Source: an uncultured Bacteroidales bacterium
GTDB taxonomy: Bacteria > Bacteroidota > Bacteroidia > Bacteroidales > F082
NCBI GenBank assembly: GCA_946185535.1
Contig: CAMHJX010000008.1
Span: 1-64,000, forward strand
Length of the DNA: 64,000 nt
Reading direction: 5' to 3'
Position numbers and translations under genes: made by a program. The notes below the pieces were generated by a model, which was given only the letters and a program-made list of their open reading frames with translations, was not told the origin of the DNA and did no database searches. How positions within the stretch are numbered: the stretch's first letter is position 1; each line of letters opens with the position of its first letter. Shown one piece after another: positions 1,306 through 50,454 of this stretch.

Positions 1306-3456
1306 ATGAAAAAACTCACTTTATTAGTTATGGGCACAATCACCCTATTCGGCTGCAACCAACAACCACAGCAGCCTGAACGCTATTCCGTCAAGGCTTA
1401 CCCCGAGACGAGAAAAGACACCACCGTCGTCGACGACTACTTCGGCACGAAGGTCGCCGACCCGTACCGTTGGCTCGAAAACGACACCTCCGCCGAGACC
1501 GCTAAATGGGTCAAGGCGCAGAACGAAGTCACGCAAGACTACCTGAGCCACATCCCCTTCCGCAGCGCCCTCAAGGATCGCCTCACGCAACTCGTGGACT
1601 ATGAACGCTATGGCATGCCTTCCAAGAAACACGGTCGCTACATCTACTCGAAGAACGACGGCCTTCAGAACCAAAGCGTCATCTACATGCAGGAGACGCT
1701 CGACGGCGAGCCTACCGTCTTGTTGGACCCCAACAAACTCTCCGATGACGGCACCGTCTCGTTGGGCGGCATCAGCTTCTCCAACGACGGCAAATACATG
1801 GCCTACACCATCCAACGCAGCGGCTCCGACTGGGTCGAGATCTATGTGAAGGACATGGCTACCCTCGAACTCCTTCCCGACCACATCGAATGGGCCAAGT
1901 TCACGGGTGCCTCATGGTACAAGGACGGTTTCTTCTATGCCGCCTACGACCGCCCCGAAGCTGGCAAGGAATTCAGCAACGTGAACGAAAACCATAAGAT
2001 ATACTACCACAAACTCGGCACGCCACAGGAGCAAGATGAACTCTTCTACTCCAACCCTGCCCAACCGCGCTACTTCCACCAGGTGGATCTCACCGAGGAT
2101 GAGCATTACATGTTCCTCTTCGAGAGCGGTCAAGGCGCAGGTAGCACATTGTGGATTCGCGATATGCAAGACCCGAAGGGCAAGTTTGTTCAGATTGCCG
2201 ACAACATGGACTACCAGTACAACCCCATTGACGTGATTGATGATGTATTGTATATTTTCACCAACTACAACGCGCCCAAGGGTCGTATCTGCAAAGTGTC
2301 AGCCAAAACCCCACAGATGGAGAACTGGGTAGATGTGATTCCTGAAAGCGAAAATGTCATTTCGGGCATCAACTTGGCCAAGGGCAAGATGATTGTCACC
2401 TACGACAAAGACGCCGCCAACCACGCCTACGTCTACACCATGGACGGTCAGCAACTTCACGAGATTGCGCTGCCGACCTATGGCGCCGTCGGTTTCAGCA
2501 GCAAATACGAAGAGCCTGAAGTGTTCTACGCCTTCACCTCTTTCGCCTTCCCGACCACGATTTACCAATACAACATCGACGATAACACCTCGTCTGTGTT
2601 CCGTGCTCCTGCCATCGACTTCAAGTCGGACGACTACGTCACCGAGCAGGTCTTCGTCACCTCGAAGGACGGCACCAAGGTACCGATGTTCCTGACCTAC
2701 AAGAAAGGCTTGCAGAAAGACGGCACCAACCCGACCTTCCTGTATGGTTACGGCGGGTTCAACATCACCCTCAACCCAGGCTTCAGCACCTCACGCCTGC
2801 CCTTCATCGAGAACGGCGGCATCTACGCCCAGATGAACCTGCGCGGCGGTAACGAATACGGCGAGGAATGGCATATCGCCGGCACCAAACTGCAGAAACA
2901 GAATGTCTTCGATGACTGCATCGCTTGCGCTGAATATCTTATCAATAATGGCTACACCTCGAAGGAGTACTTGGCTCTGAACGGTGGCTCCAACGGCGGT
3001 CTGCTTGTCGGTGCTGTCGTCAACCAGCGTCCCGACCTCTTCGCCGTGGCAGTGCCGCAAGTTGGCGTGATGGACATGTTGCGTTACCACCTCTTCACCA
3101 TCGGTTGGAACTGGGCCAGCGACTATGGCACCAGCGAGGATGATGAGGCCATGTTCAAGGCTTTGTATGCTTATTCGCCGCTGCACACCATCAAGAGCGG
3201 TGCTGACGTACACTATCCTGCCATCATGGTCACCACTGCCGACCACGACGACCGTGTGGTTCCCGCCCACTCGTTCAAGTATGCAGCTGCCTTGCAAGCT
3301 GCCCAGACTGGCGACCAGCCCAAGATCATTCGCATCGACACCAAGGCCGGTCACGGTGGCGGCAAACCCATCTCCAAGGTTCTGGAAGAACAAGCAGATA
3401 TCTATTCGTTCATCCTGTACAACATGGGATTGACCTATCCGAAGGAGGCGAAATAA
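1306..3456 (+). CDS. Prolyl oligopeptidase family serine peptidase (S9A), lipoprotein
   Basis: A 716-residue protein of normal length for S9A prolyl endopeptidases, which cut short peptides after proline. It begins with a lipoprotein signal ending in LFGC (Cys17), so it is probably anchored in the envelope. The N-terminal seven-bladed propeller spans about 30-440 (KVADPYRWLEND is the typical entry). The alpha/beta-hydrolase domain follows, with nucleophile Ser562 in GGSNGG, the acid in TTADHDDRVVP and the base in AGHGGG. ATG at 1306 is the only start compatible with the signal peptide. The gene is monocistronic, with a hairpin after the stop. Confidence 0.95.
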   Translation: MKKLTLLVMGTITLFGCNQQPQQPERYSVKAYPETRKDTTVVDDYFGTKVADPYRWLENDTSAETAKWVKAQNEVTQDYLSHIPFRSALKDRLTQLVDYERYGMPSKKHGRYIYSKNDGLQNQSVIYMQETLDGEPTVLLDPNKLSDDGTVSLGGISFSNDGKYMAYTIQRSGSDWVEIYVKDMATLELLPDHIEWAKFTGASWYKDGFFYAAYDRPEAGKEFSNVNENHKIYYHKLGTPQEQDELFYSNPAQPRYFHQVDLTEDEHYMFLFESGQGAGSTLWIRDMQDPKGKFVQIADNMDYQYNPIDVIDDVLYIFTNYNAPKGRICKVSAKTPQMENWVDVIPESENVISGINLAKGKMIVTYDKDAANHAYVYTMDGQQLHEIALPTYGAVGFSSKYEEPEVFYAFTSFAFPTTIYQYNIDDNTSSVFRAPAIDFKSDDYVTEQVFVTSKDGTKVPMFLTYKKGLQKDGTNPTFLYGYGGFNITLNPGFSTSRLPFIENGGIYAQMNLRGGNEYGEEWHIAGTKLQKQNVFDDCIACAEYLINNGYTSKEYLALNGGSNGGLLVGAVVNQRPDLFAVAVPQVGVMDMLRYHLFTIGWNWASDYGTSEDDEAMFKALYAYSPLHTIKSGADVHYPAIMVTTADHDDRVVPAHSFKYAAALQAAQTGDQPKIIRIDTKAGHGGGKPISKVLEEQADIYSFILYNMGLTYPKEAK

Positions 3457-17642: not shown

Positions 17643-17695
17643 GGCCCCTGAGCCCGTCGAAGGGCCGACCTAAAACTTCGACAGGCTCAGCAACC
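17643..17695. repeat. Inverted pair of the CCTGAGCC..GTCGAAGG repeat
   Basis: CCTGAGCCCGTCGAAGGGCC is followed by CTTCGACAGGCTCAG in reverse orientation, giving a 15-bp stem with one mismatch. It lies between mltG and the phosphohexomutase gene. The same repeat family occurs inside two genes, at 38477-38500 and 46763-46810. Confidence 0.8.
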
Positions 17696-34397: not shown

Positions 34398-37043
34398 ATG
34401 AAAAGACTATCTCTCGTTTTACTACTGGTTTTTGCCTCGCTTTCCCAAACTTTTGCGCAATCCACTGTCGATAAAGCATTGGCTTACAAAACAGCGCAAG
34501 CATTTGCTGACGCTCATCAGGACTTCAAGGGACAAAGTTTGGATTTGGTATCTTCTGACGGAAACTATATTTACAACATCGGTAACCAAGGCTTTATCAT
34601 CATTTCTGGCAATACTGTGCTTCCGCCTGTCTTGGGCTGGTCCAATCAAGGCAATTTTCCCGACATGGAAGATGCTCCAGAGAATTTTGCCTCATGGATA
34701 GCACATTATTCCGAGATGATCGATTTTGCCGTCGCCAACAGCATCGCTCCTGAGGAGAAAATCCAACGCCAATGGGACAATGCTTCTCATGGCATCTTCG
34801 GGACGCGAAACAGCCAAACCGTTGATCCTTTGGTCAGTACGCGCTGGAACCAGGACTGCTACTACAACGAGTATTGTCCAGAGACAGATGGTGGTTGGTG
34901 GTGGGGTGGCCCTTGCGGTCACTGCTATGCGGGCTGTGTGGCTACTGCCATGGGACAGGTAATGAAGTATTGGGACTATCCTGAGACGGGCTTTGGCTCA
35001 CATAGCTACACACACAGTCAATACGGTGAACAAAGCGCCAACTTTGCCGCTACCACTTACCATTGGGATAATATGCCTAACGAGATTTGGAATAGCAACG
35101 ATGCCATAGCCACCTTGCTGTACCACTGTGGTGTGAGCGTCAACATGAACTATTCGGCTTCGGGCAGTGGAGCGCAGTCGGCCGACGTGGAGACCGCACT
35201 TCGCTCCTACTTTGGATACTGCGGCGCAAAATACCGCCAAAAGAGCAGTTACCAAGAAGAGGCATGGATTGCCATGCTGAAAGCCGACCTTGACCAGTCA
35301 CATCCCATATATTACTCTGGCGCCAACGGCGACAGTGGCCACGCCTTTGTCTGCGATGGCTATGACGACAACGACCTCTTCCACTTCAACTTCGGATGGA
35401 GCGGCAGCGGCGACGCATTTTATTCGACCTACGACGTAAACGGTTTCAATCAAGGTCAGGCCGTGGTGACCAACATCTATCCTGTCAGTATCCAAGCCGA
35501 TGACAACGGCATCATCTATGTCAGCGAAAATGGCACTGGCGACGGATCCTCGTGGAGCAACGCCACCAACAAGTTGCAGTTTGCCTCAGCCCTCTCAAGT
35601 GGCGGCGGCACCAAGGTCTGGGTGAAGTCGGGTATCTATTTTGGCGACACCACCGACATGGAAGGTGCATTCAGTATATCGCCCAACAATCGTATCTATG
35701 GTGGATTTGAAGGCACCGAAGGCCCCGACTTTGACCTCTCGCTTCGTGACTTCGACAAGTTTCCTACCATCCTCGATGGACAGGGTGCTCGGCGAGTGTT
35801 ACTGCAAGACCAAGCCTTCACTTCAGCTACCATGCCTGTTTGGGACGGTTTCACCATCCAAAACGGAGCCATCGGTAGCGGTGCAGGAGCCTACCTGAAC
35901 AACTATGTCACGCTGAACAACTGCACTATCATCAACAACACCGCCACTATGTACGGTGGTGGCATTTACATCAACTCAACGGGTGGCACTGCGCATGTCA
36001 CTTTGAACAATTGCTGTATCACAGACAATAGCGCCTCGATGGGAGGTGGCGTGTGCGACCGTGTCGGAGCTGATTACAACAACTGCCGCATCAGTAACAA
36101 CATTGCCACAACCAAGGGTGGTGGAATATACCTCTATAATAACACAGAGCCGACACTCAAAAACTGCATCATTAGTAACAATTCGGCAAAAAACGCAGGC
36201 GGCATGTATGCCCGAGGCAAGTTCACTGCCTACAATTGTGATTTCGTGATGAACCTCGCCACGGAGAGCATCGGAGGCGTCTATCATGAGGAAAGGCACA
36301 ACAAATACATTAACTGCATCCTATGGGGCAACATGGCCAACGGTCAGCCGAGCCAGGTGGATGGTGTGAGTGATTATGAGTACTGTGCTGTGCAAGGTGG
36401 AGTCGAAGGCACAGAGATAACCAATCTGTCAACCGAAAACAGTGGCGTTGAACCTGGTTGTTATGTGCGATTCAATCATCCCGCCCAAGGCGCAGGAGCC
36501 GAATATCACAACAGCAATTGGAGCATTCATCCGCGCAGTATCTGCCTCAATGCAGGCAAGCCTTACACTACAGGTTTGGGTAATACCGACATTGCAGGCA
36601 ATCTTCGCCTTCAGAAAGGTCGCGTTGAAATAGGTGCTTACGAGAGCTGCGCTTCGCTCACCTTGGTTGAAGACAATTTATATGAAAGCGATACTCCGTA
36701 TTGGTTCTTCAGCCGTCCGTTGACCGAGCCTGGCTACTACACCCATGTCCTCGAAGGTTCTGACTGCGACAGCGTCATCGGCCTCACTTTGATGGTTTTG
36801 GAAGGCGTAACTGAAACTTCTGAAAATGCCATACAGGTATGGCCGAATCCCACAAAAGGCCTGCTGCACATCGAAGCGCAAGACATTGACAAACTAGAAA
36901 TCCGCAATCTTTTAGGGCAGTTGGTATTGGAAGCAAGAAAAGCTGAAATCCTCAGCCTCGAAGGATTAGAAAAAGGCGTTTATTTCTTGATTGCCAGCAA
37001 TAAAAACGGAGTAAAGACCGTTACCAAGGTAATCAAGGAGTAA
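34398..37043 (+). CDS. C10 (streptopain-type) cysteine protease with beta-helix and T9SS tail
   Basis: An 881-residue secreted protein with a signal peptide (QTFAQ) and a propeptide region to about 140. The C10 protease domain (about 145-365) has nucleophile Cys180 in GCVATAMGQVMKYW and His315 in GDSGHAFVCDGY. Next comes a right-handed parallel beta-helix (about 375-720) with repeats such as LNNCTIINNTATMYGGGIYI and LKNCIISNNSAKNAGGMY. The T9SS sorting domain closes the chain (VWPNPTKGLLHIEAQDI..YFLIA). The helix may bind glycans or act as a surface stalk. Both catalytic residues are intact, so the protease is likely active. Confidence 0.88.
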   Translation: MKRLSLVLLLVFASLSQTFAQSTVDKALAYKTAQAFADAHQDFKGQSLDLVSSDGNYIYNIGNQGFIIISGNTVLPPVLGWSNQGNFPDMEDAPENFASWIAHYSEMIDFAVANSIAPEEKIQRQWDNASHGIFGTRNSQTVDPLVSTRWNQDCYYNEYCPETDGGWWWGGPCGHCYAGCVATAMGQVMKYWDYPETGFGSHSYTHSQYGEQSANFAATTYHWDNMPNEIWNSNDAIATLLYHCGVSVNMNYSASGSGAQSADVETALRSYFGYCGAKYRQKSSYQEEAWIAMLKADLDQSHPIYYSGANGDSGHAFVCDGYDDNDLFHFNFGWSGSGDAFYSTYDVNGFNQGQAVVTNIYPVSIQADDNGIIYVSENGTGDGSSWSNATNKLQFASALSSGGGTKVWVKSGIYFGDTTDMEGAFSISPNNRIYGGFEGTEGPDFDLSLRDFDKFPTILDGQGARRVLLQDQAFTSATMPVWDGFTIQNGAIGSGAGAYLNNYVTLNNCTIINNTATMYGGGIYINSTGGTAHVTLNNCCITDNSASMGGGVCDRVGADYNNCRISNNIATTKGGGIYLYNNTEPTLKNCIISNNSAKNAGGMYARGKFTAYNCDFVMNLATESIGGVYHEERHNKYINCILWGNMANGQPSQVDGVSDYEYCAVQGGVEGTEITNLSTENSGVEPGCYVRFNHPAQGAGAEYHNSNWSIHPRSICLNAGKPYTTGLGNTDIAGNLRLQKGRVEIGAYESCASLTLVEDNLYESDTPYWFFSRPLTEPGYYTHVLEGSDCDSVIGLTLMVLEGVTETSENAIQVWPNPTKGLLHIEAQDIDKLEIRNLLGQLVLEARKAEILSLEGLEKGVYFLIASNKNGVKTVTKVIKE

Positions 37044-38257: not shown

Positions 38258-40939
38258 TTATTTCACCACAAATTTCTGCGTAATACCATCAATGACAATG
38301 AAATACATGCCTTGAGGAAGGTTTGTCACATCAATTTGTTGGGTCTCACCCGAGATTTGTCCTGTCATCAAGGTTTGACCCATGGTGTTTGTGATACGAT
38401 ATGCGTTGGTTTGAGACGCGATAAATCGCGTCTCTACAAAGAGGATACCATGGGTAGGATTCGGATAAACCGTTAAGGTCCCTGAGCCCGTCGAAGGGCC
38501 GTTCTCTTCCACACCATCGGTATGCACCGTCACGAAATCATGGATGCCGTCAGCCGAAATTGCCGGAGCCGATTCACATTCTCCACCGACAATCGTGTTG
38601 ATGGCCGTCACCTGGTAATAATAGGTCTCGGCGCTGGAATCATGGTCATCAAAATGCATGTCCGTACCGGTGGCAATCCCAATCAAATCATAGTTTTGGC
38701 CATTGGTGGAACGATAGACATAGTAACCGTATGTCGAGCTTATCGTTCCTGCCCAAACCACATTTGTGACTGTAATGTTGTCGATAACCAAAGAATAGTT
38801 CGACACATGGGTGAAATGGCGGAAACCGAGGTAAATCTCCTGACCTTCGTATGCCGAAAGGTCGACAGAATAGGCATGATACGGATAGCCGGAATCCCAT
38901 TCTGCAATAGTAGCGATGTTCATTCCGTCACCTGAAGCTACAGCCACCCCAAAATGCTCCGTCGAATATGAGGGGTCAAAACCCGAAGCATAGAAGGTCA
39001 TCGAAGCATTTTCCATCACCTTAATTTTGGGCATAAAGGCATAGTTATCAGGCTGAAGCGATCCCAAACCATTCATATAGGAAAATGAACTTAGCGAGGC
39101 GTTGGTGTTGGTCGTGTTCACCGAACCATCCGAGTTCATACCGCCACCATTATAGATGCCAAAGATCTGTCCGTCGCCATCGGCATCGAGGAAAGTCCAG
39201 CCTTGTGGGTCTTCTTCAAAACCTGTGTAAATCTCGCGTTCCCACGAAATCCTCACTTTATCACCCAAATTCTCTGCCTTGAGGTTTTTGGGAGCGACAC
39301 AGTCCAACTCAGCTTCAGCACATTGAGGAGCAGCAAGGGCATAATAGTCACCTGTCTCGCGACTACCCTCTTGGATGATACGGATGCAATAATTAGAGGT
39401 GTAACGGTTCACCTCAAGGGTGAAAAAAGTCTCACCATGATTGAGCGTGGCAATCAACTCATTATCAGCATAAACCAATGCACCTATGGCAGGACGTGTC
39501 ACCTCAGCCTCAACACCAGTCACTTTGATGTCGTCAACGCAGAGGAAATAGGTCTCGCCCGTCGTGTTGAAGTGGCGAATGGCGACATAGATTTGCTGTC
39601 CGGCATAAGCTGAAAGATCGGCGGAATACTCAGTGTAGGTACCCGTGCTGTTCCACTCCTGAATCATGGTGAAATCTGAAGGATTAGTGTTGCCCGAAGT
39701 GGAAACAGCCACCCCAAAATGCTCAGGGTCGGGGGCAATGCCAGGCATGTCGGCATCGCAAGCCATGAAGGTGATGCGACCATTGGCAGTTGGAGTCAAT
39801 CGCGGCGTGACGATGAAATTGTCGGGGTTGAGTTCATCCATTCCAGCCATCCATGACCATGACCGCAGGCCAATGCCTCCATTATAACCGCCGTAAGGAT
39901 ACACACGGAAGTTCTGTCCATCGTTATTGGCATCGATGAGGGTAAGGTCCATCAAGGTGCTGTCGGCAAAGTCGTAATAGAGTTCCTCTACAGGGAAAGG
40001 CACATTCATCTCAGGCAATGTCCACGAGAGTTGCACTTGGTTGCCGTCACTCTCTGCGTGAAGACCGTTGGGCGAGCCTTGGAAGTGGTCGGGGGTGCGA
40101 TAGGTCCAAGCGTATTCGTTCTCAATCATTGCACCATTCTCATAATAAGCACGAATGGTGGTCGTGTGAGTCGAGCCGTCCGCAAAACCGTTGGTATTCA
40201 ACAAATAACTAGTGCCAAAATGATTCTCGGCCACTGTCTGACCATCAAGAACAATATCGCTACCGATTAAGAAACCGGCGTTGACGTTTCCGATGAAAAC
40301 ATTGTCAATGCAAATGGCGAACTTGTCGGAACAGTTAAAATGACGGATGGCGAGATAAACCTCCTGACCTGCGTAAGCAGAAAGGTCAACGGAGTACACA
40401 TGCCAATTGCCTTGACGGGTTCCGTTGTCTTTTGCGGTCAAATTCCATTCCTGAAGGGTAGTGAAAGCCGATGGGCTGTCGTTGACCGTCGTCGATATGG
40501 CCACGCCAAAATGCTCGGCGGGATACGCCTCATCCATAGCACTGGCATGAAAAAGTATCTCGCCTCTTTCAGGAACAATCAGGCGGGGCGAAACCATGAA
40601 ATTATTGGGCGTGAGCGGCGAAGTAGTGGCATTGTCGTAAGAATACGACACCAGCATACCATCGAAGCCACCAAATCCCATGCCGCCAGTTGAAGGCAGT
40701 TGCCAGTTGTGGCCATCACCATCGGCATCGATAAGGGTCCAGTCGAGGATGCGGCCTTCTTCGAAGTCTTCCTCGAAATCCCAATAGTAAGCTCCATCGG
40801 GGGAATAAACGCCTGGTGCTCGATAAAGCACATAGCCCGAGGCCGATACATAATTTTCTATGCCTTGTTGGGCTTTCGCTCCAAAGGGAGCGGTCATCAG
40901 TAGTGCCATTGTCAGGAATGGCAGGAGGTGTTTTCGCAT
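38258..40939 (-). CDS. Large secreted protein with three cleaved-adhesin domains and T9SS tail
   Basis: An 893-residue protein with a signal peptide (FGAKAQ). Three jelly-roll units of the cleaved-adhesin type follow (about 55-212, 323-476, 572-727). Each starts with a DFEE..W.LIDADGDG-like calcium loop and ends with YSVDLSAYAGQEVYLAIRHFN and CIDNVFI-like strands; they are separated by fibronectin-type linkers. Cleaved-adhesin domains bind host matrix proteins and haem in Porphyromonas surface proteins. The last 72 residues (VYPNPTHGILFVETRF..MYFIVID) are a T9SS sorting domain. Two different hairpin repeats lie in frame in the tail region (see repeat entries). Confidence 0.85.
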   Translation of the reverse strand: MRKHLLPFLTMALLMTAPFGAKAQQGIENYVSASGYVLYRAPGVYSPDGAYYWDFEEDFEEGRILDWTLIDADGDGHNWQLPSTGGMGFGGFDGMLVSYSYDNATTSPLTPNNFMVSPRLIVPERGEILFHASAMDEAYPAEHFGVAISTTVNDSPSAFTTLQEWNLTAKDNGTRQGNWHVYSVDLSAYAGQEVYLAIRHFNCSDKFAICIDNVFIGNVNAGFLIGSDIVLDGQTVAENHFGTSYLLNTNGFADGSTHTTTIRAYYENGAMIENEYAWTYRTPDHFQGSPNGLHAESDGNQVQLSWTLPEMNVPFPVEELYYDFADSTLMDLTLIDANNDGQNFRVYPYGGYNGGIGLRSWSWMAGMDELNPDNFIVTPRLTPTANGRITFMACDADMPGIAPDPEHFGVAVSTSGNTNPSDFTMIQEWNSTGTYTEYSADLSAYAGQQIYVAIRHFNTTGETYFLCVDDIKVTGVEAEVTRPAIGALVYADNELIATLNHGETFFTLEVNRYTSNYCIRIIQEGSRETGDYYALAAPQCAEAELDCVAPKNLKAENLGDKVRISWEREIYTGFEEDPQGWTFLDADGDGQIFGIYNGGGMNSDGSVNTTNTNASLSSFSYMNGLGSLQPDNYAFMPKIKVMENASMTFYASGFDPSYSTEHFGVAVASGDGMNIATIAEWDSGYPYHAYSVDLSAYEGQEIYLGFRHFTHVSNYSLVIDNITVTNVVWAGTISSTYGYYVYRSTNGQNYDLIGIATGTDMHFDDHDSSAETYYYQVTAINTIVGGECESAPAISADGIHDFVTVHTDGVEENGPSTGSGTLTVYPNPTHGILFVETRFIASQTNAYRITNTMGQTLMTGQISGETQQIDVTNLPQGMYFIVIDGITQKFVVK
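38413..38434. repeat. Perfect 10-bp-arm palindrome inside the T9SS tail coding region
   Basis: GAGACGCGAT and ATCGCGTCTC face each other with a 2-bp centre. On the coding strand it encodes ETRFIAS, in place of part of the first loop of the sorting domain. A similar GTCTC/GAGAC hairpin is in the loop of the terminator at 9249-9305. Confidence 0.75.
38477..38500. repeat. CCTGAGCC..GTCGAAGG repeat in frame in the adhesin gene
   Basis: The 24-bp copy encodes GPSTGSGT on the minus strand (residues about 814-821), exactly in the linker before the sorting domain (TVYPNP). Confidence 0.85.
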
Positions 40940-45712: not shown

Positions 45713-48700
45713 TTAGAAAGACCCAATGCTCAGCCCCGCATATTTCAGACGATTCAAGAAGTCGAGCATCGACTCGTAGGGCACCGCAACATATTGGAAT
45801 TTTTGCTCATCTTTGGTGCGAGTGCGGTTCTTTTCCTTCGTTTCTGCCAACCTCTGGTTGATGTCGGAGAAGGTGCAGTGCACTTGGAACTGTCCGTCGC
45901 CAGAGTTGTAGTTGATGTAGGTTTGGAACATGTCATCCTGGAAATAGTAAGTGATGTTGCCCAAACGACGGTCGAACACCACACAGCCATCCACATACTT
46001 GTTGACAACATGGCTACCAAAGTTGCCCAAACCAATCTTCCCTACCGACACAAAGGCATGCAACTGGTCGTTCCACACCATCTTCAAGTCGGGAATCACA
46101 ATCGTATTGCAGTAGAAATCAGAAGAAGACTCTATCTGCGGATAACCTCCTGCCAATTCGATGTTCATCCGCATTTCCTCGGTTTTTTCCTCCGAGTTTT
46201 CAGAACGGTAATAAGGCAAGAAATTGGTCCGTGTCAAGTCGATGGATTCGCCTGCGACGTTGGCAAAGACTTCCGCCATAGACTCCATGGCTTGGTCATC
46301 GAAGACGGGGGCATTGAATACATTGAGGCCCTGCAAAGTGATGCTGTCGTTGGGATATTGGGTGTAGTCGCCATGGAAAGCAAACTTGGCCAAAGGCGTG
46401 TCGAAGCCCAAGTCGGTCGTGCCTTGGCCATTGATGACGCCGCGTTTGTCAAGCTCAAGGCGGCTATCGAATTTTGTCGTATCAGTCACCACAAAACGCA
46501 AACTGTCAGCATCGAACCACAAGAATCCGTTGCATGGCTCAGCTTCATCCAACTCTTTCCTACCCTCTTTTGGCGTAAGGAAGGAGCCGAAATAGCCGCC
46601 ATCAATGGCCAGCTCATAATAAAGGCCGTTGGTCATCCTTGGTTCCTCTTCACGAATGCGATCCATATCGATGGGAATGCGAATCGCTGCCGGGTTGATA
46701 TGGGTGGCCGAGACAAACCAATGGTTGAGGGCGGCGATGGTGTCTTGTGCCGTCTCTGCAAGGGTCCCTGAGCCCTCGGTTCCTGAGCCTGTCGAAGGAG
46801 TCGAAGGGCCCGATTCATCCAACTCCGTTTCCATTTCTTCTGTTTCAATAACTGTTGAGTCAAGCGGCGTTTCGACAGGCTCAATGATCGCAGGCTCTTC
46901 AAAGGCTAGCATGGCGAACTTGCCATCAAAATAGCCTAACTGCTCCGTGGCATCCAATGTCAGTCGGCCTTGGAAGCCGAACTGCGTGTTCAACTTGAAT
47001 TCAGCCACATCGGCAATATGGGCATAGCCATGCGTGATTCCGTCAACAGGGACAATGGTATCCATCCTAATGGGGGTGCTGACTCCATCGGCATTGGTAT
47101 AATCCCATGTGCCTTGGGCATCATAATAGTTGCGACTGTGGATGTTCACCACGGCATCCTTATAAAGGTGATATTGGTTCAGCGTGTCGGCCAACAGGTC
47201 ACCATTCACAGGCTCCAACTTCGATTCGGCGTTGATGTCTACGTCGTGCATATAAGGGAACACAGCAGCATCAGCCACGCGAATGATTTTCACGTCGTGG
47301 GCATGGATGACATAGTTGGTCATATCGTATTCCGCACTCATGCTATAGAATTGCAAAGAATCTTGCTCAGGAACGAGCGAAATGAACTTGGAGGCATTAT
47401 TGTGCACGGCTAGCAACTCCTCATGTGTTGTTGCAGTGGCATAGTCACCGAAACTTTCCACCGGATTATATAGATGCAAACTATTGGAGGCCATATCCCA
47501 TTCGGCTTCTTTCAAGGAACAGATGTATTGGTTCATTGGGAAGTCGAGGTTACTGGTCTGGTCGAGGTAGTCATATTTCACTTTTTGTGCGTCGAAGTCG
47601 ACATTGGCTCGGTAGTTGGTCGCCGCAAAAGCAATGTTTGTCGTGTCGGCAGAATACAACAGGAATTGAGCCGAATCGGCCACGAAGGTTCTGGAATCCA
47701 AGGCGAAATGATCGGAATCGAATTCCGTCAGGCCAAAGCGCATCTTACCGTCAGCCGAATAACCGTCGGGCGACAGCACCGTCTTGCCTGAGAAATAGGT
47801 GTCGCCATACATGCAGATAGGTTTGTCAAAGGTCTCAGTGGTCAATTCCGGAATGCGAATGTCCCATTTCAGCTTAAGTGCATCGGCCGAAGCCATAGGG
47901 AATCCCGTGCCGTCCTCGCGTGGCACCATCTTGAACTGGTTCGTGATAGCGGTGACCGAGTCCAAATAAAACATAAACTGGTCGGAGTTGAACGCTGCAG
48001 TCTGATAATCGAGCTTCCCCTCGCCAAAGAAACCGCTTCCCGATAGGAAGACCCTGTTGTGGAACCTACCCAAGTCGCCGTACAAAGGATAAGATGCCGT
48101 TTCATCCCCCCCAATTTGGTGCACAAAACCTAGGGAAAAGTCTTCCATGACCACAAGCGGTTGCTCGATATTGGGCATAATGCCACCCGAAACCAATTCA
48201 CCGTCAAAACGCACTTTTTTCATCGAGAGGTCGTTCAAACTGTCGACGACAAAGGGATACACACTGTAATAGAATTTGCCATCGAGATCCTCGGCAGTCA
48301 TCACCGAGTCGACGTTGCCGGGATGGAACACGCCACCGTTGATTTTCCTGTAGAACTTGAAGCCTTCGGCTTCGCTGTGGAAGATAGGATAAGAAGGTGT
48401 CTCATAACGGCTCGACTTGTTGTCGCCATGGTCAATTTCCAAACGTCCCTTCAACTTTTCCAAGGTACCGTCAACAGGGACGACATGGTTGTTGTAACGG
48501 GCGTAGAAACGCAAGGAGTCGATCTTTTCCATTTTGATGGAAAAGTCTTCGTAATTGAACTCACTGTCTTTAGTGAAAAGTTCAAACATTCCCGCCAAGA
48601 TGCCTCCTGAGAACTTGAAATTCTGGTTTTTCGTGAAGGTGATACGTCCCAAGTCGGGAACAATGACCACGCGTTTGCGGTCACTTAAAGATATGGCTGA

Positions 48701-50422
48701 GCCTTCAAAACCATCAATCTGGCTCGTGATGCCATACACCAGCAAGTCGTTGGTGGTCAAATCGAGGCGAAGGTTGGGCTGACGATTTGTGGTGCGTGTA
48801 TGCAACTTGATAACGTCGTAGTCGATGGTCTCACGATAGGAGTCCACAACATCGAAAAAGCGCGGCAAGGCTGTTGCCCATTTTGTTTCGGGATCATACT
48901 CCACATAGCCCTCGGCTCGTAACTTAAGCATCAGTGCGATGACCTGCTCGATAGGATAACCCAAATAGGAAGCCAAGTCGCCCACAGCAAACTTCACCTG
49001 CCGGTCCACATTGTCGAAGCCTTGCAGGAACTTCTCGATACGTATCATGGGATGCGAACTGTCGAGACCTTGCAGGCGTTTGAAGTCATCGTGGCGGAAG
49101 TAGTTCACCGAAACCACATCGCCTTCGCTTACCGGGTTGACGCCTTCCATTCTCCTGAAATCCACCTGATTGCCATCGATGTCCCAATACATGGCCTCGA
49201 GGAAGATGTCAACCCCATGGTAATAATCATGGAAAGGCCCGTCACCGAAGTCCTTTTCGGAACGGAAAGCCATCATCTTGCGAGTCTTGTTGTCGTAACG
49301 GAATCCAATGCCGTTGTGATAGAGGGAATCCATTTCTGTTCCTACCGTGTCCATCAAATAAACACGCAGGGCGACGTTGTCCGATACCAGAAGCTCGTCC
49401 ATCGACATGAGGAAGCGTGGCGCTTGCACCCTCACGACTTCCCTGCCTCCTTGACGAAAATGGAAAACTGCCTTTTTGCTAACACCTCCAAACACATCCA
49501 CTTGGTTGCCCATCATGCCGATGCCACCTTCAAAGTCGATGTTTTGCATCAGGTTGGAGATGGCATAATCGGAACGATACGATTTCACTCGTGGAAACAT
49601 CGTTTTTTCGTTGGGCGTATTCACGAAGACCTTGTCTTCAAAGCAACAGAGGATATCTTGATGGAAATGCGTGCGTTCATGGAAAATGGCCGAGTCAATG
49701 GTATATTCCGAGCGGCTGAGATCAAGCTCGTAGAAGTCGGGCAAAGTGACAGAGACCTTTTCGGCAGGAATGTTGAAGCGCGACCAGTCGGCGCTACCTC
49801 CCATACCTTCCCAGCGGTTGCCGTCAAGATAATACACTCCTTTGGTGTTCTTCAGCAGCGACTCATCCTTTTGCGACACCAAGGCCAAGGTGCCGTCGAT
49901 GCTCAGTTCGAACTGCTCCTTTGAAGGGAAACTCCATAGTGCATCTCGGAGTGTCCATTGGGAGTTGCCTTTGGCAGACAAGACTTTATCGACAAAGATG
50001 CTACGGCATGAGGCAAAGTATTTGTCCACGCCGTTCAACGACTTCTGTGTCTTGGCGTCAGTAAAGCAGAGCCAATTGTTTACATCCGTGTGGGTCAGTC
50101 CTGCAGTAGGAATCTTTTGCACTACTTCAATGTAATTGAAGATGTTGGTGTAGGCCTTTCCACCCGTTCGGGCATGCAGGAGTTCGCAAAGCCGCATGAT
50201 CATTTCGGCCTCCTGATTGTCGTAGTAGCTGTCCCATACCCCTTTGAATGACTGCATGATGGCAGCCGCGTCTTCTCGATCCTGTTTCGCAGTGGAAGAG
50301 TTCAAATACGACGAAAGCTTGTCATAAAAAGCGTTCTTTTCTGTTGGAAAAAAGGCCTGAGCAAACGATGGGACAGCGCTCACGAAAAGCGCAAAAACAA
50401 CAATCAAGATTCCTTTCTTCAT
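45713..50422 (-). CDS. Giant secreted beta-rich protein of unknown function
   Basis: 1569 residues from ATG 50422 (a TTG directly before it is an alternative). A signal peptide (SAVPSFAQ) is followed by a helical region (about 25-190) and a beta-rich stretch of about 190-480 that recalls OstA/LptA-type sheets (VYLMDTVGTEMDSLYHNG). A winged-helix-like segment is at about 490-545 (VGDLASYLGYPIEQVIALMLKLRAEGYVEYDPET). A long beta-rich part with recurring LDSRTF..FLLYSADT-like strands runs to the end. No catalytic motif, sorting tail or membrane anchor is visible. It follows prmA by 32 bp and is probably co-transcribed with tpiA and prmA. I do not recognise the family; an outer-membrane biogenesis role is only a guess. 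Confidence 0.75.
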   Translation of the reverse strand: MKKGILIVVFALFVSAVPSFAQAFFPTEKNAFYDKLSSYLNSSTAKQDREDAAAIMQSFKGVWDSYYDNQEAEMIMRLCELLHARTGGKAYTNIFNYIEVVQKIPTAGLTHTDVNNWLCFTDAKTQKSLNGVDKYFASCRSIFVDKVLSAKGNSQWTLRDALWSFPSKEQFELSIDGTLALVSQKDESLLKNTKGVYYLDGNRWEGMGGSADWSRFNIPAEKVSVTLPDFYELDLSRSEYTIDSAIFHERTHFHQDILCCFEDKVFVNTPNEKTMFPRVKSYRSDYAISNLMQNIDFEGGIGMMGNQVDVFGGVSKKAVFHFRQGGREVVRVQAPRFLMSMDELLVSDNVALRVYLMDTVGTEMDSLYHNGIGFRYDNKTRKMMAFRSEKDFGDGPFHDYYHGVDIFLEAMYWDIDGNQVDFRRMEGVNPVSEGDVVSVNYFRHDDFKRLQGLDSSHPMIRIEKFLQGFDNVDRQVKFAVGDLASYLGYPIEQVIALMLKLRAEGYVEYDPETKWATALPRFFDVVDSYRETIDYDVIKLHTRTTNRQPNLRLDLTTNDLLVYGITSQIDGFEGSAISLSDRKRVVIVPDLGRITFTKNQNFKFSGGILAGMFELFTKDSEFNYEDFSIKMEKIDSLRFYARYNNHVVPVDGTLEKLKGRLEIDHGDNKSSRYETPSYPIFHSEAEGFKFYRKINGGVFHPGNVDSVMTAEDLDGKFYYSVYPFVVDSLNDLSMKKVRFDGELVSGGIMPNIEQPLVVMEDFSLGFVHQIGGDETASYPLYGDLGRFHNRVFLSGSGFFGEGKLDYQTAAFNSDQFMFYLDSVTAITNQFKMVPREDGTGFPMASADALKLKWDIRIPELTTETFDKPICMYGDTYFSGKTVLSPDGYSADGKMRFGLTEFDSDHFALDSRTFVADSAQFLLYSADTTNIAFAATNYRANVDFDAQKVKYDYLDQTSNLDFPMNQYICSLKEAEWDMASNSLHLYNPVESFGDYATATTHEELLAVHNNASKFISLVPEQDSLQFYSMSAEYDMTNYVIHAHDVKIIRVADAAVFPYMHDVDINAESKLEPVNGDLLADTLNQYHLYKDAVVNIHSRNYYDAQGTWDYTNADGVSTPIRMDTIVPVDGITHGYAHIADVAEFKLNTQFGFQGRLTLDATEQLGYFDGKFAMLAFEEPAIIEPVETPLDSTVIETEEMETELDESGPSTPSTGSGTEGSGTLAETAQDTIAALNHWFVSATHINPAAIRIPIDMDRIREEEPRMTNGLYYELAIDGGYFGSFLTPKEGRKELDEAEPCNGFLWFDADSLRFVVTDTTKFDSRLELDKRGVINGQGTTDLGFDTPLAKFAFHGDYTQYPNDSITLQGLNVFNAPVFDDQAMESMAEVFANVAGESIDLTRTNFLPYYRSENSEEKTEEMRMNIELAGGYPQIESSSDFYCNTIVIPDLKMVWNDQLHAFVSVGKIGLGNFGSHVVNKYVDGCVVFDRRLGNITYYFQDDMFQTYINYNSGDGQFQVHCTFSDINQRLAETKEKNRTRTKDEQKFQYVAVPYESMLDFLNRLKYAGLSIGSF
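46763..46810. repeat. Nested in-frame copy of the CCTGAGCC..GTCGAAGG repeat
   Basis: The stretch encodes GPSTPSTGSGTEGSGT on the minus strand. The outer 24-bp repeat (GPST+GSGT) is split by 24 bp of a second copy (PSTGSGTE). Frame is kept. A single half-copy (TTTCGACAGGCTCAATG, encoding EPVETP) lies at 46870-46886 in the same linker. Confidence 0.85.
46870..46886. repeat. Half-copy of the GTCGAAGG/CTTCGACAGG repeat in the same gene
   Basis: TTTCGACAGGCTCAATG is in the opposite orientation to the nested copy at 46763-46810 and encodes part of IIEPVETPLD on the minus strand, in the same acidic linker. Confidence 0.55.
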
Positions 50423-50454
50423 CAAATTATCAATTGTAAATTGTAAATTATCAA

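Follow-up and report, generated by a model that had tools for sequence, protein, structure and literature searches.

Introduction

REP, REPIN and BIME elements are short imperfect palindromes that are present at about 100 copies per genome, often as pairs in opposite orientation and in some cases within genes; according to the accessible parts of the same two sources, REPs of E. coli also carry conserved stem mismatches (PMC8266576, PMC3733652). How REPs spread and choose their targets is characterized as poorly known in the available portion of PMC8266576. The CGTC-tagged REPs, which include RPE-4 and RPE-6 of Rickettsia conorii, are described from Bacteroidetes and Chlorobi, also in coding regions and, in the part of the account available to us, without a dedicated transposase; the stems of these families are 8–9 bp long and start with A-T pairs (PMC3733652). 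The Rickettsia element RPE-1 is represented by palindromic insertions within genes, which the same excerpt describes as longer insertions (PMC3733652).

The repeat analyzed here was encountered in a stretch of 64,000 nucleotides from an uncultured Bacteroidales bacterium (contig CAMHJX010000008.1, positions 1 to 64,000), referred to below as the window. The source, or own, genome comprises 3.67 Mb and is 93% complete; G-numbers denote genomes of its genus and L-numbers denote fetched loci. The family resembles REP/REPIN/BIME elements in palindrome type, copy number, opposite pairing, the presence of some genic copies and stem mismatches, whereas it differs in that the GTAG tag is not conserved (among 86 simple copies, 2 have GTAG and 3 have its complement within 10 nt of the hairpin), no RAYT was found in the own genome, and units nest in loops. 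The letters CGTC, after which the CGTC-tagged REPs are named, adjoin the hairpin foot, at a distance of up to 8 nt, in 11 of the 86 simple copies, but CGAC is the commoner foot (36/86), and the stem falls short of theirs and has interruptions, with three paired positions, T-A, mismatches, a bulged T and a GG/CC foot. The initial annotation had likened the element to the in-frame palindromes of Rickettsia; the behavior fits what the available text says of them, and the likeness, RPE-1 included, is one of description, the units here being only 24 to 48 bp long (PMC3733652). The element can be classed as a broad-sense REP and, within the reach of the tests applied, is neither GTAG-tagged nor a RAYT REPtron. 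A literature search with narrow terms, mostly outside subscription journals, returned no account of the repeat letters or of nested or loop-inserted REPs; a family of this kind may record REP target choice.

The nested element and its host gene

Positions 46763–46810 hold a REP-like hairpin whose loop contains another REP, and the reading frame is kept. The features to which the analysis refers are as follows:

45713..50425, minus strand: host gene of the nested REP, about 1569 residues if the start is the ATG in second position
46763..46810, minus strand: nested REP, 48 bp, peptide GPSTPSTGSGTEGSGT, defined by sequence reading and genome copies
46800..46810, minus strand: left arm of the outer REP, GGCCCTTCGAC, identical to the arm of simple copies
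46776..46799, minus strand: inner REP unit, 24 nt or 8 codons, with its own foot AACCGA
46774..46775, minus strand: loop of the outer REP, 2 nt (GG), 3' of the inner unit
46763..46773, minus strand: right arm of the outer REP, GCTCAGGGACC
46865..46889, minus strand: REP', a partner REP variant in opposite orientation, peptide IIEPVETP, in the same linker as the 48-bp nested REP
38477..38500, minus strand: simple 24-bp REP in the Cleaved_Adhesin gene 38258–40939, directly before the type IX secretion tail
17647..17691, no single strand: REP core at 17647–17663 (minus) with a possible diverged partner at 17675–17691 (plus, 2 mismatches), the partner being weak alone, with 1.35 chance matches expected per window at 3 mismatches allowed

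The 48-bp unit lies in frame of the open reading frame 45713–50425, where the minus strand from 46810 to 46763 is translated as GPSTPSTGSGTEGSGT. Near-identical copies are located on three other contigs (98, 96 and 96% identity; best E-value 1.2e-16), and, together with the re-read parts, they bear out the earlier description of a nested repeat kept in frame; the intact 24-bp copy that had been noted in the adhesin gene was found again on re-reading. The earlier reading overlooked REP'. The inner unit is situated at the boundary between the left arm and the loop of the outer REP, where the genus genome G106 has a 2-nt loop. The host protein begins with a signal-peptide-like stretch, as judged by eye, and on this sequence it is probably secreted; searches of Pfam, NCBIfam and PDB sequences gave no match to it. 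A search of Rfam at gathering scores was of no help, yielding two tRNAs.

Copy number, structure and pairing of the repeat family

When at most one mismatch is allowed, the core CCTTCGACNNGCTCAGG matches 60 + 60 = 120 places in the own genome, dispersed over many contigs (100 of the 120 matches listed), while the reversed pattern matches none; the core is thus frequent elsewhere in the genome, contrary to the absence that would have refuted the earlier reading. Support for the hairpin comes from stem covariation. Among 142 instances of the motif TGAGCNNGTCGAA from own-genome loci, three positions outside the motif are paired in 139, 138 and 132, against shuffle means of 117.8, 89.3 and 115.5, and the observed values were reached in 0 of 2000 shuffles. 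The stems are interchangeable, among them CCC/GGG (86), CGT/ACG (18), GCC/GGC (3) and TGC/GCA (3), and GG/CC pairs extend the stem when one T is bulged. The structured strand of the unit can be written as GG-T-CCC-TGAG-CNNG-TCGAA-GGG-CC, with a short stem, a bulged T and G.A mismatches. In DNA, G.A pairs that lie in tandem form a stable arrangement. Since single-strand DNA folding energies were unremarkable for the four strands modeled (z of 0.35, -0.39, 0.23 and 0.74), perhaps due to the G.A mismatches in the stem, the hairpin claim rests on the covariation.

A partner in opposite orientation lies 16–120 bp away for 86 of 159 motif instances, and in 40 of these 86 instances a CCC stem is combined with a CGT stem.

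Nesting across the family

In the own and genus genomes 83 nested elements were parsed, with a gain of 24 bp in 67, 15 bp in 15 and 23 bp in one; the net gain is thus 24 or 15 bp in 82 of the 83, whether inside or outside genes. Preservation of the frame follows from the length of the units, which in this genus is nearly always divisible by three, genic or not. A search pattern that asks for no more than a doubled left arm with one right arm was matched in 38 of 99 genus genomes, compared with 0 for the control.

The feet of the two units were compared in 68 footed nests from the own and genus genomes. The inner foot is GACCGC (40) or AACCGA (13) in 53 of them, whereas the outer foot is GACCTN in 52; with feet this unlike, the inner unit is no tandem duplicate of the REP that hosts it. 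The outer loop reads AG in 43, GG in 22 and AA in 3, similar to simple copies. Judged from these letters, the inner unit looks like a piece set between the left arm and the loop of an otherwise ordinary REP.

Nested forms occur in several phyla, and nesting is a trait of the family. A wider contig collection was scanned with a pattern of the same demand, and among the matches listed, nests with both arms doubled were found in records of Bacteroidales, Treponema, Chloroflexi, Phormidium, Rhodoferax and Propionicimonas. Twenty loci of this collection were assigned to the genus by DNA similarity and names; for those placed outside it, among the matches listed, 36 of 60 additions have a length divisible by three. 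The number of Russian-doll levels is two at the present locus and three in a genus relative (the triple nest of L247), and there are ten left and ten right arms in Phormidium.

The Phormidium case, L230 (Phormidium pseudopriestleyi NZ_JAFLQW010000149.1), is a staircase palindrome of ~150 bp in which the ten left arms precede the ten right arms. Relatives of the own genome by DNA match include rumen Bacteroidales MAGs.

Alleles at the linker of the giant gene

To compare the linker, the giant gene was read by eye at 30 loci in genomes of the genus, 28 of which were resolved. A nested REP is present in the own genome and in G016, in two different subtypes, and G114 carries a probable decayed 15-bp nest. 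Four genomes have a simple REP at the linker (G106, G021 with one mismatch, G028 and G082), a fifth (G012, L144) has a simple REP in inverted orientation, and four hold a decayed simple REP (G018, G097, G099 and G102). The site is free of a recognized REP in 16 of the 28, some of which show a REP-like stretch at the first site, most clearly G092. Orthologues therefore differ at the linker rather than sharing its residues.

The closest comparison is with G106, whose spacer is identical to the own one letter for letter and whose REP is the simple 24-bp form, with AA as the outer loop versus GG in the own copy. Over the 600 columns of the alignment that precede the linker window, the own sequence is 98–100% identical to both G106 and G016 (99% for G016), while over the 150 columns with the REP the identity is 96% with G106 and 76% with G016. 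Between the REPs (46763–46889; L137–L139) the linker is a mosaic, in which the REP' letters of the own genome equal those of G016 and the spacer equals that of G106. In sequence terms it is as if the exchange breakpoints lay at the REPs.

Alleles elsewhere and copies in genes

A second site with graded alleles is located in the transketolase gene (Pfam Transketolase_N). The 30 orthologues, counted by hand, all keep the frame: 17 are empty, 2 have a simple REP, 5 a decayed simple REP or REP-like stretch and 6 a nest of the 15-bp class. With alleles of the empty, single and nested kind side by side at one codon position, in transketolase as at other sites, the order of events becomes open to testing.

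At 16 distinct sites where the own genome has a simple REP, a relative is nested or triple between aligned flanks of 74–95% identity; this count is not a rate, as many of the relatives' loci were fetched for nesting and 40 of 106 own elements were usable, and it leaves out L044 (a simple REP plus a separate nest), L032 at 1581 (a neighboring element was caught) and L014 (an inverted nest). The automatic simple/nested classes of this comparison mislabel some elements; L447, for example, was classed as simple and is nested in the transketolase alignment. Inverted elements between aligned flanks were also observed in relatives, in L317 versus L085 and in L386 versus L014, with L386 as an inverted nest.

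A rough codon-score rule places 34 of 92 simple own copies in coding sequence, distributed over frames as 17, 9, 7 and 1, with GPSTGSGT as the commonest peptide. Twenty REP-bearing proteins were scanned, and a type IX tail was detected above the Pfam cut-off in four and below it in one. Other hosts include a gyrase B-type protein, S9 and tricorn-type proteases, GH2, ABC, MMPL and PHP-domain proteins, and transketolase. The earlier suggestion that such hairpins are tolerated in low-complexity linkers proved too narrow, as REPs lie in the catalytic domain of transketolase and in gyrase B-type and PHP-domain proteins; the palindromes add residues to an enzyme domain, beyond linkers. Gene enrichment of nests with a T at the seam relative to the other 24-bp class was unsupported (9/19 versus 17/54, p = 0.27).

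In the own genome (L027, contig C6), a gyrase B-type gene contains two close REPs, whose peptides in a single open frame are ALRQAQGP followed by GPSTGSGT. No REP precedes the tail motif VWPNPT of the window gene 34398–37043 (36760–36880 inspected); in a relative (L254, Bacteroidales RGIG7101; 3293–3440), a nested-like REP reading GPSTPSTGSGNAGT lies in frame at that place.

Candidate transposase

Three Y1_Tnp genes are encoded in the own genome, with NCBIfam IS200 scores of 72.8, 49.2 and 43.8 bits (cut-off 55), and a class-2 TnpA_REP (RAYT) was not found there, REP_Tyr_transpos scoring 28.8, 20.1 and 24.2 bits against a cut-off of 80. The signature Y---Q--HH is present in all 43 Y1 proteins examined, which represent a chosen part of the genus set and the own genome. 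In the accessible part of PMC6006769, this signature defines Y1 subclass 1.2, reported from Cyanobacteria and Bacteroidetes, whose genes are generally without terminal IS200 structures. The genus Y1 proteins share the signature with that subclass, and their tie to the REP is here a correlation. Y1_Tnp is present in 36 of 36 genomes with at least 20 exact cores and in 34 of 63 with fewer, and the 29 genomes without it have at most 15 cores each. REP count and Y1 count are correlated with rho of 0.59 over 99 genomes and 0.46 within a clade of 37, both values being confounded by kinship. These observations suggest a candidate substrate for an orphan Y1 transposase subclass.

Flanking of Y1 genes by the repeat was not supported: a repeat-like motif was detected within ~600 bp of the Y1 gene in 1 of the 43 examined and in 0 of the 3 in the own genome. 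The presence of Y1 in every genome with nested-type loci was likewise unsupported (5/8), Y1_Tnp not being seen in 3 of 8 genomes of other groups that gave such loci, although these genomes may be incomplete. Together with the kinship effect, both results weigh against a causal reading of the correlation.

Possible origins of the nested form

We hypothesize, with a rough probability of 0.57, that a REP-like hairpin in the gene had a second REP inserted at its left-arm/loop boundary, perhaps moved in trans by a Y1 transposase. The REP'–REP pair lies in a linker, the protein being probably secreted, and in the source lineage the REP carries a second REP unit at this boundary, a hairpin within a hairpin. 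The step may have been an insertion into the loop, existing REPs being favored targets if they expose a single-stranded hairpin; at the linker site, the simple form would be earlier than the nested one, and the putative mover would be a Y1 (HUH) transposase of the single-strand type that works in trans. Two properties keep the gene open: the unit has a length divisible by three, and the simple REP, as read from its sequence, is stop-free in five of six frames. The unlike outer loops of the own copy and G106 (GG versus AA) count against the insertion hypothesis. The initial annotation had also proposed that a repeat entered an existing copy. Of this reading, nesting, variation between relatives at the same site and a longer form that stays in frame are borne out, but a one-off local entry is not supported, and an event unique to gene 45713–50425 was rejected, since the nested form is dispersed. 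A wider version of this idea is possible, with the odds leaning against it: the extruded loop of a REP would be a favored insertion site for a REP of the same superfamily, resulting in Russian-doll growth of a self-targeting hairpin, with an orphan Y1 of subclass 1.2 as the mover in Bacteroidales and frame-neutral units that let the dolls live in housekeeping genes of the genus.

As the 48-bp nested form is itself dispersed and comes in several subtypes, a fresh insertion and an exchange with a nested copy from elsewhere look alike at this site; the spread of ready-made nests, or exchange, would by sequence give the same alleles as insertion. We regard it as rather unlikely that nests arose rarely and that simple and nested forms were then swapped by ectopic gene conversion or recombination via shared arms or longer flanks. 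Such swapping would agree with the two 24-bp nested subtypes, both dispersed and each multi-copy, and with the mosaic linker, where identity to G016 falls from 99% (600 columns before) to 76% (150 columns with the REP) as against 96% for G106, and where the own REP' letters follow G016 and the spacer follows G106. However, the arms in common measure merely ~11 bp, and several nested subtypes plus a triple nest at REP sites demand repeated events. Replication slippage, in which the left arm (8 bp) and the right arm (7 or 15 bp) would be tandem-duplicated separately, appears distinctly improbable. It draws on unequal arm numbers: with a strict right-arm rule, and counting arms as (left, right), (2,1) is common where loci were chosen for a doubled left arm, accounting for 13 of the 31 cores parsed in the genus set, versus 17 of (2,2), and for 61 versus 46 among the matches listed from the wider contig collection. 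The G106/G016 loci give 3 versus 5. Phormidium loci with (7,2), this one in the genome of L230, and (4,8) also exist, and the 15-bp step, being 8 + 7 bp, could reflect two tandem duplications. Against slippage, the feet differ between inner and outer units, and in the own genome, with 91 (1,1), 14 (2,2) and one each of (2,1), (1,2) and (1,3), 14 of the 15 cores whose left arm is doubled have the right arm doubled too, these copies being related. We give almost no credence to an ordinary Ser/Gly/Thr linker peptide that repeats by chance; a composition of this kind is common in linkers, but copies at the DNA level that lie inside as well as outside genes, are read in four or more frames and have covarying stems do not fit it, and this candidate was rejected on the genome-wide copies and the stem covariation.

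A second palindromic repeat in the window

Another palindromic repeat, similar to CGTCATTGCGAGGAACGAAGCAATC, is located at 1184–1208 of the window, with 2 mismatches, where none is expected by chance. Copies of this repeat adjoin REPs in loci L032 and L073. We take it to resemble the CGTC-type repeats.
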